Origin: Bacteroidota bacterium
GTDB lineage: Bacteria > Bacteroidota > Bacteroidia > B-17B0 > Aurantibacillaceae
DNA: 39,774 nucleotides
Direction of reading: 5' to 3'
NCBI GenBank assembly: GCA_013297775.1
Contig: JAAFIL010000018.1
Location: 1-39,774, forward strand
Part shown: positions 2,482-6,892 of the stretch, piece by piece
How the letters are laid out: each line of letters begins with the position of its first letter
Position numbering within the stretch: the first letter of the stretch is position 1
Made by a program: the position numbers and the translations under genes
Notes under the pieces: model-generated
What the model was told of the DNA's origin: nothing
Databases searched by the model: none
What the model saw: the letters and a program-made list of their open reading frames with translations, nothing else

Positions 2482-3780
2482 TTATTTAATGCCGTATTTG
2501 GCTTTGTATTTTTCGTATAATTCGGTTTGTTGATTGGAGAGCGTTACAGGTTTCCCATTCAAATAGGCCATTACCACTTGGCTGCTGCGCATGTCTAAAA
2601 TATCGCCTTGTGAAATTACCAAACTGGCTAGTTTACCAGCTTCTAAGCTGCCTAGTTGTTTATCTATTCCTAATATACGTGCGGCATTTAAGGTTATGGC
2701 AGTTAACGCAGCTTCTTTTCCTAAGCCGTAAGCAGCGGCCGTGCCAGCAATAAAAGGTAAATTTCGACTTTGCATACTTTCCATGTCGCCATAAGCACTT
2801 AAACAAAATAAAATACTGTCTTTACTTAATTGCGCTGGCAGTTTAAATACGGCATCTATGTCGTCGCTTTCCAAATCGGGTAAATCGTGTAGGCGACTTA
2901 ATATAACTGGAATTTTACTGGTTTTTAAAACTTCGGCTATTTTGAGTGCGTCTCTGGCTCCACAAATAACAGGGGCTTTAATGCTATATTGTTTTACAAA
3001 TTGAATAGCGGCTAACATTTCGTGGGCTTTAAAGGCAGTAATGTATAAACGTTGTGTGCCACTAAACACGCCTCGCATGGCTTCGAAGCGGATATTTTTT
3101 TCGTTGGGGGTTGCCTGTAAACAATAGGCTTGTGCTTGCGAAAAAAATTGATGGAGTTTATTTAATTGTTCGGTATAGTTTTTATTTTTTTTAAGGTTCA
3201 TGCCTTTTTCCTCATCCCAACCCATGTATTTTTCAACTGGAAAGTTTAGGTGAATGCCATCATCGGCTTTGAGAACGGCATCTTCCCAGTTCCATCCTTC
3301 GAGCGATAAAATAGATGATGTGCCCGCTATTAAATTGCCGCGTGGTGTAACTTGAGTATAAAGTACGCCATTGGTTTTTACGGTGGGTGTTATTTTATTA
3401 TCGGTGTTGTACGCAATTAAACTGCGTACATGCGGATTAAATTCGCCTACCTCTTGAAAGTCGAGTGTGGCGCGCACAGCATCGGCATCGTGCAAGCCTA
3501 AAATGCTGTTGGTATTTATTAAAGCGGGATAAACGTGCTGCCCTTGCAAGTCAATAACCGTGTCGTAAGCCGGAGGGTTTAAGCGCAAGCCTTTCATGTC
3601 CATTACCATTTCGAGGGTTTGCCCTTGCAGGGTTACAATGCCTGTTTCGTAAACAGTACCATTGCCAACGTGTACTACGCCGTTAATAAAGGCAATGTGT
3701 GTTTTTGTTTTTTGCGCTTGCAGAAAACTGCCTAATAAGGATAGGCTGAATAGGCTATAAAATTTAAGTAATTTGCTCAT
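2482..3780 (-). CDS. Exported amidohydrolase-family protein lacking metal ligands
   Basis: 432 residues with a signal peptide (about 1-22, ending F-L-Q-A-Q). The fold signature is that of imidazolonepropionase-like amidohydrolases: an N-terminal beta part, a GQHVYPALIN strand at about 84, and a C-terminal LTAITLNAARILGID plus GSLEAGKLASLVI module. The HxH after the P-x-L-I-D strand is replaced by INTNSIL. The later metal-site His positions and the Asp near the C-terminus (here F-C-L-S-A-Y-G-D) are also not recognisable. I infer a non-catalytic or strongly altered homologue, perhaps a partner of the two-domain protein encoded just upstream. Its ATG is 10 bases after that gene's stop. Periplasmic or outer-membrane location is likely. 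Confidence 0.8.
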   Translation of the reverse strand: MSKLLKFYSLFSLSLLGSFLQAQKTKTHIAFINGVVHVGNGTVYETGIVTLQGQTLEMVMDMKGLRLNPPAYDTVIDLQGQHVYPALINTNSILGLHDADAVRATLDFQEVGEFNPHVRSLIAYNTDNKITPTVKTNGVLYTQVTPRGNLIAGTSSILSLEGWNWEDAVLKADDGIHLNFPVEKYMGWDEEKGMNLKKNKNYTEQLNKLHQFFSQAQAYCLQATPNEKNIRFEAMRGVFSGTQRLYITAFKAHEMLAAIQFVKQYSIKAPVICGARDALKIAEVLKTSKIPVILSRLHDLPDLESDDIDAVFKLPAQLSKDSILFCLSAYGDMESMQSRNLPFIAGTAAAYGLGKEAALTAITLNAARILGIDKQLGSLEAGKLASLVISQGDILDMRSSQVVMAYLNGKPVTLSNQQTELYEKYKAKYGIK

Positions 3781-3790
3781 GTCTAATTTT

Positions 3791-6700
3791 TTAACGGTGT
3801 CCGGTTTCTTCTTCGCTTACGCCTTCGATGGTGTTGCAATGGTATAAACGTTGGCGTTTGGTTGTAGGTTTCACCACTTTTACGCCTTTGTGTTTTTCGG
3901 CAATTAATAAGCCTACCAAGCGGGCGCGCTCTACTTTAATGTCTTCGCGTAAGCGGGTATCTTCTTCGCGATCGAAATAAATTTGTCCATCAATAATTGT
4001 TTTTTCGGCCTTAGCGTAAATACTAAGTGGGTTATCGCTCCACACCACCAAATCGGCGGTTTTGCCTACTTTAATGCTGCCTACTTTATCGTCGAGGTGC
4101 AACATTTTTGCAGGATTTAAAGTAACAAGTTTTAATGCTTCGATTTCTGATAACCCGCCGTATTTTACTGATTTAGCGGCTTCTTGATTTAAGCGGCGAG
4201 CCATTTCGGCATCGTCGGAGTTGATGGCAGTAACCACGCCCATTTTGGTGAGCATGGCGGCATTATGTGGAATGGCATCCATCACCTCATTTTTGTAAGC
4301 CCACCAATCGGAAAACGTAGAGGCGTTGACTCCGTGTGCTTTCATTTTATCGGCTACTTTATAACCTTCTAAAATATGGGTAAAAGTATTCACTTTAAAC
4401 CCAAAGCTGTCTGCAATGTGCATAAGCATATTGATTTCGCTTTGCACATAACTGTGGCAAGTGATGAATCGTTTTTTGTTTATAATTTCGGCTAAGGCTT
4501 CGAGTTCTAAATCGCGCCGTGGGGCTACTCGTTTTTCTTTTTCAATTTGTTTAGGGCTTAGTTTGGTAAACTCGCTCCATTGTTTATCGTATTCTTTAGC
4601 GCGGGTAAAGTAGTCGTTATACACTTGCTCAACACCCATGCGGCTTTGCGGGAAGCGTACGCGGTTCATATCGCCCCAGTTGGATTGTTTCACGTTTTCG
4701 CCGAGTGCAAATTTTATAAAGCCATCTGCTTTTTCAAATTTCATGTCTTCGGCTGTGGCACCCCAACGTAGTTTAATGATGGCACTTTGACCGCCAATTG
4801 GATTAGCTGAACCATGCAGCAATTGCGCCGAGGTAACACCGCCGCTCAACTGCCTGTAAATATTAATATCTTCTGGATTAATGACATCGCCCATGCGCAC
4901 TTCGGCACTACTGGCTTGTGTGCCTTCGTTTACGCCTCGGGTTAAAGCAATGTGCGAATGTTCGTCTATAATCCCTGGAGTTAAATGTTTTCCTTTGGCA
5001 TCAATAACTTTGGCAAATGCCCCCGCAGGTGCGTCTATGTTGGGCGCAATGCGTACAATTTTTCCTTCTACAACATATACATCGTATTCTTTTAAAATGC
5101 TGTCGCCTTCGTTTGTCCAAACATTGGCATCTTTAATAAGAATGGCTTGATAGCGGTTTTTAAATTTTTTCCATTGGTCGCGTAGCAAGCCACTGCTTTC
5201 GGGTAGGGGTTCGCCGTAGGCTTGAAAGGGATAAATAATTTTACCGAGTGTTGGCAGTTTCTTTTTAGGGGTGGTTGTTTTTTTGCTGGTGTCGGGCGAT
5301 TGAAAGCGCAAGTTGTAATTGTACCAAGTACCATCGGCCCATTGACCTTTTCCAACAAAGGTTTTTTTATCGCTTTCGTAAACACCGTTTAAGCGCGTAA
5401 TGAGGACAGAGTCGTATTTAAAACTCATGGTCATCACGCCGTCATCTTGGTAATTAAACTGCGCGTTAACTTTAATCGAATCTAAGTACACGGTAACCGT
5501 TGGCTTAGAGCCTTCGCCTTTCATGTTAACGTTAAAGTTGCGGGCAGAGGTATTTAGTAGGTAATTCCCTTGAAACTCGGGTTGATTAACTTCTTTATAA
5601 ACAGAAGGTAACCCATTGGTCCAATGTTGAAGAATGTTGGCTTCCTCTTCAAAAATGGAAGTAGTACTAACAAAAAAATTGGCGAAATATCCTTTTTTGA
5701 TTGCGCCTAATTGATTTTGCATGTTTATAAATTGCGCTGGTGTGGTTGTTAATGCCTTAAGGGCTGCTTTTTCAGAAAGCCCGTACTGTATGGCTTTGCG
5801 AAGGTGGCTTAAAAATTTGGCCTTTTCTTTTAAACCTGAAGTGGTTAAACAAAACGGCATATTATTTTTTTCGAAGGCGGCGGGGTTTGTTGGCGCAAGT
5901 TCCCAATGTTTGAGATCGGCATAAGCTACTAACTCGGCATCGTAAGGGTCTTCAACATCTATTGCCTCCGGAAAATTAAGCGGCACAATAAAACGTAAAT
6001 CGGTTTGTTGCAGTTCAGAAATACGTTGGTATTCATCGCCTCCTGCTTTAACGATGTATTTTATATTTAGTTCTTGCCCCAAGCGGGCAATGCGTAGTGC
6101 GTTAAATTTATCTTCTCCATCAAAAATAGAAGGCAAGTTTTGCAGTTGATTAAAGGCTTCTAAGGAGATGTTGTATTCCGATTTATTAGTGGTGGCTTTG
6201 TACCATTGGGCATCGTAATACGTTTGGCGCAATAGGGCAACTGCTCCTGTTAAAGAACTTGGATAATCTTGTGTTGAACTGCCTTTATTGAAGGCATAAA
6301 AACCTGCTACTCTATCTTTGTAAATACATTCGTTTTCGTTGGCATCACTCAAATGCACTAAAGTTCCGCTCCCCCTCACAACTCCATCTTTAGCGGCACT
6401 AAGCACCACGCCAAACCCTATTTTTTTTAAATCATCGGCTTGTTCTTTGTTATGTTGAAATACTTTATGCGCTTCATAATCGGCTTTAATGGCTTGGTTC
6501 CAACCGAATGCCCCTTTAACCGACGATTCCATTTGTGGACCGTTCCATTGGCGTGGAGCTGGTTTGTTGCTAGGAATGCCATACTCGCTGTATAAATCAA
6601 TAAAAGAAGGATAAATGTGTTTCCCTTTTAAATCATAAACAATGGCATTAGAAGGAATAACAGCTTTTTCGCCAACCTCTAAAATAACATTATCTTGAAA

Positions 6701-6892
6701 CACTAACACTGCATTTTTTAGTTCGGTGTTTTCATCGGTGTGAATGGTGGCATTTTTAAATGCGTAAATACTGTGGGTGAGGTGGGGTGCTCCATTAACT
6801 GGAAAAGTAGTTTGTGCATTTAGGTGCGTGAGCATACTTGTAACTAAAATGCTTAATCCCGAAAAAAAATAAAAAGATTTCATGCGCTTCAT
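3791..6892 (-). CDS. Exported two-domain amidohydrolase (one active-looking, one degenerate domain)
   Basis: 1033 residues with a signal peptide (about 1-27, ...THLNAQ). Two amidohydrolase modules lie in tandem. The N-terminal one (about 40-435) keeps the fold landmarks (KHIYPSFIDLYSEYG at 91-105, AALKALTTTPAQFINM, LGAIKKGYFANFFV) but has no HxH. A beta-rich linker spans about 450-535 and a Lys/Thr/Pro hinge about 536-550. The C-terminal module (about 580-1033) has the metal motif DEHSH (His645, His647), His813 in TCHSY, His839 in FTHILEG and Asp893 in INSDDAE, so it should be catalytic; the substrate is unknown (peptide-like or cyclic amide in relatives). It is first gene of the operon with the next amidohydrolase and pdxA. 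A second in-frame ATG at 6883 (MKSFYFF) is an alternative start that suits the promoter position better. Confidence 0.85.
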   Translation of the reverse strand: MKRMKSFYFFSGLSILVTSMLTHLNAQTTFPVNGAPHLTHSIYAFKNATIHTDENTELKNAVLVFQDNVILEVGEKAVIPSNAIVYDLKGKHIYPSFIDLYSEYGIPSNKPAPRQWNGPQMESSVKGAFGWNQAIKADYEAHKVFQHNKEQADDLKKIGFGVVLSAAKDGVVRGSGTLVHLSDANENECIYKDRVAGFYAFNKGSSTQDYPSSLTGAVALLRQTYYDAQWYKATTNKSEYNISLEAFNQLQNLPSIFDGEDKFNALRIARLGQELNIKYIVKAGGDEYQRISELQQTDLRFIVPLNFPEAIDVEDPYDAELVAYADLKHWELAPTNPAAFEKNNMPFCLTTSGLKEKAKFLSHLRKAIQYGLSEKAALKALTTTPAQFINMQNQLGAIKKGYFANFFVSTTSIFEEEANILQHWTNGLPSVYKEVNQPEFQGNYLLNTSARNFNVNMKGEGSKPTVTVYLDSIKVNAQFNYQDDGVMTMSFKYDSVLITRLNGVYESDKKTFVGKGQWADGTWYNYNLRFQSPDTSKKTTTPKKKLPTLGKIIYPFQAYGEPLPESSGLLRDQWKKFKNRYQAILIKDANVWTNEGDSILKEYDVYVVEGKIVRIAPNIDAPAGAFAKVIDAKGKHLTPGIIDEHSHIALTRGVNEGTQASSAEVRMGDVINPEDINIYRQLSGGVTSAQLLHGSANPIGGQSAIIKLRWGATAEDMKFEKADGFIKFALGENVKQSNWGDMNRVRFPQSRMGVEQVYNDYFTRAKEYDKQWSEFTKLSPKQIEKEKRVAPRRDLELEALAEIINKKRFITCHSYVQSEINMLMHIADSFGFKVNTFTHILEGYKVADKMKAHGVNASTFSDWWAYKNEVMDAIPHNAAMLTKMGVVTAINSDDAEMARRLNQEAAKSVKYGGLSEIEALKLVTLNPAKMLHLDDKVGSIKVGKTADLVVWSDNPLSIYAKAEKTIIDGQIYFDREEDTRLREDIKVERARLVGLLIAEKHKGVKVVKPTTKRQRLYHCNTIEGVSEEETGHR

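Follow-up and report, generated by a model that had tools for sequence, protein, structure and literature searches.

A probably exported set of one active-looking and two metal-less amidohydrolase modules conserved in Bacteroidota

Why would a bacterium keep two amidohydrolase modules that lack a metal site directly beside a third that has one? The question is raised by two neighbouring genes of a member of the Bacteroidota (assembly GCA_013297775.1, contig JAAFIL010000018.1, positions 1 to 39,774), and the whole stretch of 39,774 nucleotides is referred to here as the window. Both reading frames are intact, lie on the minus strand and are 10 nt apart (P0001, 2482-3780; P0002, 3791-6892). An earlier note, made from the sequence letters, had described three amidohydrolase-like modules encoded back to back, and this layout holds, with the modules N and C located in P0002 and the module S represented by P0001. 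Members of the amidohydrolase superfamily are metal hydrolases, which is the basis for taking C as one. The features of the locus are as follows.

3791..6892, minus strand: P0002, 1033 aa; a degenerate N module, a beta domain and an active-looking C module, fused
6815..6892, minus strand: predicted signal peptide of P0002, residues 1-26; hydrophobic segment, cleavage expected before Gln27
5594..6775, minus strand: N module, residues 40-433, degenerate amidohydrolase (hhalign, model, ligand counts, Pfam)
6584..6592, minus strand: Y101-S-E103 of the N module, at the HxH place (hhalign mapping)
5297..5569, minus strand: small beta domain, residues 442-532, between N and C (eight strands in the model)
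3953..5155, minus strand: C module, residues 580-980, active-looking amidohydrolase (Pfam, phmmer, model, fold search)
4952..4960, minus strand: H645-S646-H647, predicted metal ligands (both His columns conserved in 195/195 C modules)
4697..4699, minus strand: Glu732 of the FALGEN motif, invariant in C, candidate bridging ligand
4454..4456, minus strand: His813, predicted metal ligand (195/195 C modules)
4376..4378, minus strand: His839, predicted metal ligand (195/195 C modules)
4214..4216, minus strand: Asp893, predicted catalytic/metal ligand (195/195 C modules)
2482..3780, minus strand: P0001, degenerate module S, the downstream gene, 432 aa (ORF, model, fold search)
3715..3780, minus strand: predicted signal peptide of P0001, residues 1-22; hydrophobic segment, cleavage expected before Gln23
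3502..3510, minus strand: N91-S-I93 of P0001, at the HxH place (hhalign mapping)

Both proteins score above the Pfam gathering cut-offs of PF01979 (P0001 34.6 and P0002 88.6 vs 25) and PF07969 (36.1 and 88.3 vs 29.7), and a stretch of the N module also exceeds the former (29.5 bits vs 25; residues 357-415, window positions 5648-5824). Profile-profile comparisons with hhalign link all three modules, with E-values of 4e-69 for C vs S, 1e-55 for C vs N and 2.1e-92 for S vs N. The best solved relative of both P0001 and the C module is 3ooq from Thermotoga maritima, a crystal structure titled 'amidohydrolase' (phmmer 1.8e-23 and 2.2e-53, respectively). The model of P0001 (pLDDT 91.7, pTM 0.89) superimposes on 3ooq with Z 45.3 and rmsd 2.6 over 364 aligned residues, and that of the C module with Z 41.3 and rmsd 2.0 over 371, placing S and C in the superfamily fold. 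The N module is barely covered by the rows of the fold search; the P0002 model and hhalign indicate the same fold for it. Judged by the profile-profile E-values and the match of the P0001 model to 3ooq, the amidohydrolase kinship of the modules is more than chance. The single-chain model of P0002 (pLDDT 86.7) reaches a pTM of 0.85, a value that would be hard to attain with N and C placed independently of each other. It is the single structural hint that bears on binding between the modules, and so on the earlier suggestion that the pseudo-enzyme modules may build a platform or regulate the active one. More specific family models were rejected: Xaa-Pro dipeptidase NF051886, the best NCBIfam match of P0002 (86 bits; P0001 30.1 bits), misses its cut-off of 500, as do imidazolonepropionase HutI TIGR01224 (67.1 and 23.0; cut-off 298.15) and NagA TIGR00221 (74.2 and 24.5; cut-off 225.65).

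The metal site separates C from the other two modules. In agreement with the earlier note, which had assigned the ligands to C alone, an HxH motif occurs once in the two proteins, as H645-S646-H647, and His813, His839 and Asp893 lie at the positions named in that note. Orthologue alignments, initially of 109 C, 109 N and 111 S modules and then of 195 C, 195 N and 183 S modules, showed all five ligands in 195/195 C modules, together with an invariant Glu732 (109/109 in the first set, 100% of the 195 in the second). Neither Glu732 nor the beta domain between N and C had been picked up in the earlier note. The full set of HxH, His, His and Asp is thus present throughout C and absent from N and S. 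Among the S modules, 78 retain none of the five ligands, 85 retain one and 20 retain two, never more; the corresponding numbers for N are 165, 28 and two. Removal of identical sequences, which left 191 C, 181 S and 191 N, did not change this picture. The former ligand places vary widely in N and S, except for a Gly at the H839 place (172/183 S). At the H645 place, 116 of the 195 N modules have Tyr and 32 have Phe, and the commonest surviving ligand in S is a His at the H813 place (82/183). Thus, the check proposed earlier, an alignment of orthologues, found the loss of HxH conserved across the sampled Bacteroidota. An alternative ligand set in the degenerate modules, which would have spoken against the earlier view, did not emerge: every His or Cys column in S and N stays below 90%, the best being H37 in S (81%) and H329 in N (65%). 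On this evidence the ancestral metal site is absent from every N and S sequence of the set. The two modules have near-invariant positions of their own. In S these are D107 (183/183; Gly there in 96/195 C) and P146 (183/183), at the place of which C carries His693 in 195/195 sequences; in N they are R222 and R267 (192/195 each).

Since dS against the window was mostly saturated, dN/dS was computed on close pairs among the relatives, and values come from those pairs with a computable dS. They do not exceed 0.30 for S, N or C and mostly range from 0.01 to 0.1; the maxima (S 0.30, N 0.24, C 0.21) were found mainly in Hymenobacter-type pairs. In six genomes of the same genus, identity to the window is about 60-65% for N and S and 83.5-85.3% for C, and in the nearest relative the values are 77% each for N and S and 91% for C. 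N and S are less identical to the window than C and therefore evolve faster. The earlier note had named fast-evolving or frameshifted copies as evidence against its reading. The first of these applies in part, as N and S are faster than C, but the dN/dS values place them under strong constraint. With regard to the second, in-frame stops were listed in strong P0002 matches (seven rows from six genomes in one search, three rows in another), involving nine genomes in total. Six of these (G031, G008, G015, G035, G194 and G183) have full-length ORFs, and their stops must therefore sit at the ends of the matches; G014 looks truly broken, with P0002 split, and G019 and G164 fell outside the ORF check. 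The orthologue sets, in which no ORF was left unclassified, were built from long ORFs, a procedure that hides broken copies. On a plasmid of Hymenobacter volaticus (L257, 2152-6211), the copies of N, C and S are fragmented into a number of shorter ORFs and apparently decaying. The earlier argument against random decay is nevertheless borne out by the intact frames, the conserved HxH loss, the purifying selection and the retention together with the active module. By these sequence patterns, the ligand loss is old and fixed and not a case of recent decay.

In a sample of 198 Bacteroidota genomes of at least 90% completeness (S detected at E <=1e-40, C at E <=1e-85), 108 contain both C and S, none S alone, one C alone and 89 neither. 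In the single genome with C but no S (G067) the locus is interrupted by a run of the letter N, and an apparent 2531-codon 'fusion' in this genome was resolved as the same kind of run. Fisher's test for the co-occurrence gives p 1e-56, a figure that takes no account of relatedness and should not be read as a true probability; the 108 genomes represent a number of independent events far below 108. In the family nearest to the window, 60 of 61 genomes match P0002, three of them weakly (G020, G036 and G039, all incomplete assemblies); the one genome without a match, G011, is 99% complete. Of 90 S loci fetched, 42 have N and C fused, 37 have them as separate genes and 11 have neither beside S. The order N-C-S on one strand was found in 37/37 three-gene loci, mostly with overlapping genes or short gaps, and outliers were one gap of 1032 nt and one overlap of 1486 nt. 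The S gene lies downstream in 72/80 named loci, a figure biased upward by match ranking. All 11 genomes without N-C beside S carry N-C elsewhere. For two of them (L099 and L109) the contig starts close upstream, which makes the separation less sure; in two single-contig genomes (G103 and G119), distances of about 1 Mb and 1.4 Mb separate S from N-C. Six of the unlinked N-C places were fetched, and the S gene is absent from all six. The surroundings of the set gave no clue to the substrate: a comparison of ORFs of at least 150 aa at 199 loci in Bacteroidota brought up no functional neighbour that is conserved. The recurrent neighbours, named by eye, are divergently oriented genes for an HflX-like GTPase (35/199 loci) and a small membrane or cytochrome-like protein (34/199); the next most frequent neighbour cluster occurs at 12/199.

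The earlier note had also assigned signal peptides to both proteins. On the evidence of a simple hydrophobicity script and visual inspection, exported-type N-termini are indeed found in the two window proteins and in their relatives: hydrophobic segments start 145/151 fused proteins, 169/182 S, 36/37 separate N and 36/37 separate C proteins, and the misses may stem from cut contigs or wrong starts. The likely cleavage site is followed by Gln in 123 fused, 135 S, 36 separate N and 35 separate C proteins, and the Gln27 column of N has Q in 189/195 sequences. A Gln after signal-peptide cleavage (the Q-rule) is usual for most exported Bacteroidota proteins, according to the available text of PMC5837995. 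A link to pyroglutamate chemistry was dropped for this reason, as the feature is shared by most exported proteins of the phylum. Sec-type export of both proteins is thus likely, with the periplasm as a possible destination.

The combination of an active-looking and a metal-less module recurs outside the trio. In several Bacteroidota, a paralogous pair (L155-L163) consists of an upstream gene, pC, and a downstream gene, pS; in 9/9 loci the set of HxH, His, His and Asp is complete in pC but not in pS, and seven of the nine genomes have no N-C-S trio. At the place of the invariant Glu732 of C, pC has a Thr (9/9). A search of plasmid records with P0001 returned five matches, from two Sphingomonadales, Acetoanaerobium, Nonomuraea and the broken Hymenobacter copy. 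In the two Sphingomonadales, Qipengyuania and Novosphingobium, a C-type gene with the five ligands and Glu732 is followed by an S-type gene with no ligand, and an N-type ORF is absent from the stretches examined. The Qipengyuania pair (L253, 2123-7123) belongs to an operon-like run that encodes a POT peptide transporter (PF00854, 211 bits) directly upstream, the C-type protein, the degenerate S-type protein and an FKBP-type prolyl isomerase. The C-type amidohydrolase of this run has a lipobox-like N-terminus. Acetoanaerobium and Nonomuraea, whose records of 2.6 and 11.9 Mb are perhaps chromosomes, have one homologue per stretch, which retains all ligands but shows no clear signal peptide. In a tree of 66 modules, C and pC are set apart from N, S and pS. 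A tree of 41 modules that includes the Sphingomonadales pairs (aC, aS) and the solo enzymes has N, S, pS and aS on one side of a single branch and C, pC, aC and the solo enzymes on the other (support 99/98), and aC groups with C at 100/99. As the tree is unrooted and the N rows are long, it allows for the metal site having been lost just once but does not prove this. The grouping of the metal-less modules could also partly reflect long-branch attraction, given the long branches of N.

The reading that we favour, and hold to be probable if far from certain, is that the two genes encode one exported, three-module hetero-oligomeric hydrolase with C as the catalytic part and N and S as obligate pseudoenzyme subunits. 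P0002 and P0001 would together form an amidohydrolase of three homologous TIM-barrel modules. Only C would be catalytic, its divalent metal held by H645, H647, H813, H839, D893 and probably E732, and its periplasmic reaction would be the hydrolysis of an amide bond in a small molecule, for which a short peptide or an acyl amino acid is the likeliest candidate. N and S may descend from an old paralogue that lost its metal site and took a place in a former homo-oligomer, and would now lend stability to C, help to form its substrate pocket, or both. That they are structural partners is suggested because N and C are fused in some lineages but encoded apart elsewhere, because S is retained with C even where the genes are unlinked, and because the pairing of an active with a metal-less module recurs in two more pairs. 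The physical assembly, metal content, activity and substrate of the set are what we infer from these patterns. The substrate class is a guess from the Sphingomonadales transporter neighbour and the nearest named models, all of which score below cut-off, and the hint at peptides hangs on this single neighbour gene in another phylum. Against this reading, the fold seems able to function without partners, to judge by the solo relatives of C (3ooq, L255 and L256), and N and S could have separate roles elsewhere, with nothing more than the operon in common.

Known systems offer partial parallels. 3ooq is one protein that keeps HxH in the alignment, whereas the set described here has one such module and two metal-less ones and is probably exported. 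In the aspartate transcarbamoylase of Pseudomonas aeruginosa, an inactive dihydroorotase-like chain (pDHO) is necessary for the activity and assembly of its partner (PMC7053772, available text). The likeness is that an inactive chain is homologous to an enzyme of the amidohydrolase superfamily; the need of the partner for this chain has been seen for pDHO and is proposed here. The partner of pDHO is a transcarbamoylase, however, whereas here it would be an active-looking amidohydrolase paralogue with two pseudo modules, and no transcarbamoylase-like neighbour was recognised by eye among the window genes. The Xaa-Pro and Xaa-Lys/Arg dipeptidases and carboxypeptidases (2qs8, 3mtw, 3feq/3n2c) have the same fold, and NF051886 is the nearest named NCBIfam model for P0002; we know of no pseudo partner for these enzymes. 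Inactive metallopeptidase homologues regulate or scaffold active paralogues, as described in the available text of a review (PMC11266112), and belong to other enzyme families than the amidohydrolases considered here. Metal-dependent bile-salt hydrolases of the amidohydrolase superfamily, compared in PMC13081902 with YtcJ-like proteins, were set aside as a parallel; the available text of that paper notes no paired pseudo chain. In the literature searched, with subscription journals mostly outside reach, no description of the N/C/S set was found.

Other explanations for the metal-less modules have to be weighed against a hetero-oligomer. That they are plain tandem duplicates in decay is hardly credible: the Hymenobacter plasmid copy is broken up and the P0002 copy of G014 is split, but this idea is already contradicted by dN/dS far under 1, by a loss pattern fixed in the sampled lineages and by the co-retention. 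That N and S are enzymes with a metal-independent chemistry or an alternative metal site would fit the strong purifying selection and the acidic residues still present in S (D107, E110) and in N (D99, E274). However, the lack of any His or Cys column at 90% (H37 and H329 being the best) and the wide variability of the former ligand places, save for the Gly at the H839 place, make it improbable.

Alternatively, N and S might be ligand binders whose empty barrels take up substrate or product and pass it on to C or a receptor, with no stable complex being formed. Such a role would fit the near-invariant residues D107 and P146 of S and R222 and R267 of N, at places where C differs, as well as the joint retention of S and N-C even when their genes are unlinked. 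That N and C are fused in one set of lineages speaks rather for physical contact, and no transporter or receptor gene among ORFs of at least 150 aa is conserved beside the set in Bacteroidota; we regard this role as unlikely. A further scenario is that N and S are entrenched passengers, needed only because C lost the capacity for solo assembly, and add no function. The replacement of a homomer by a heteromer after duplication is a modelled route (PMC11066126, available text), and the faster evolution of N and S than of C is in line with it. Residues invariant across whole lineages in S and N argue for more than bulk packing, however, and although sequence alone would look the same for such passengers as for the hetero-oligomer with functional pseudo-subunits, we consider the passenger scenario rather doubtful.

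If the hetero-oligomer exists, its history may reach back beyond the Bacteroidota trio. We put forward tentatively, and with less than even confidence, that N, S, pS and aS are one ancient pseudo lineage. The metal site would have been lost once, before the group split, and the lineage would ever since have stayed with its active sister in an obligate hetero-oligomer whose pseudo-subunits complete the pocket; the arrangements seen today would record the steps from a solo enzyme to an exported pair, an exported trio and a fused trio. The solo, pair, trio and fused forms are directly comparable and provide a natural series for how enzymes acquire pseudoenzyme subunits. By family models each of the three modules is an amidohydrolase, although the metal site found in their relatives is missing from two. 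The metal-less modules are kept alongside the active one, which suggests that these inactive copies contribute as functioning components to a single enzyme complex. The presence of the set in 108 of 198 sampled Bacteroidota genomes, with S never found without C, points to an undescribed exported enzyme complex.

The beta domain that follows N may be optional, as the 37 separate N proteins comprise 10 of 438-504 aa and 27 of at least 558 aa. Near the C-terminus of P0002, a Cys at residue 1019 is conserved in 94% of the 195 C sequences.
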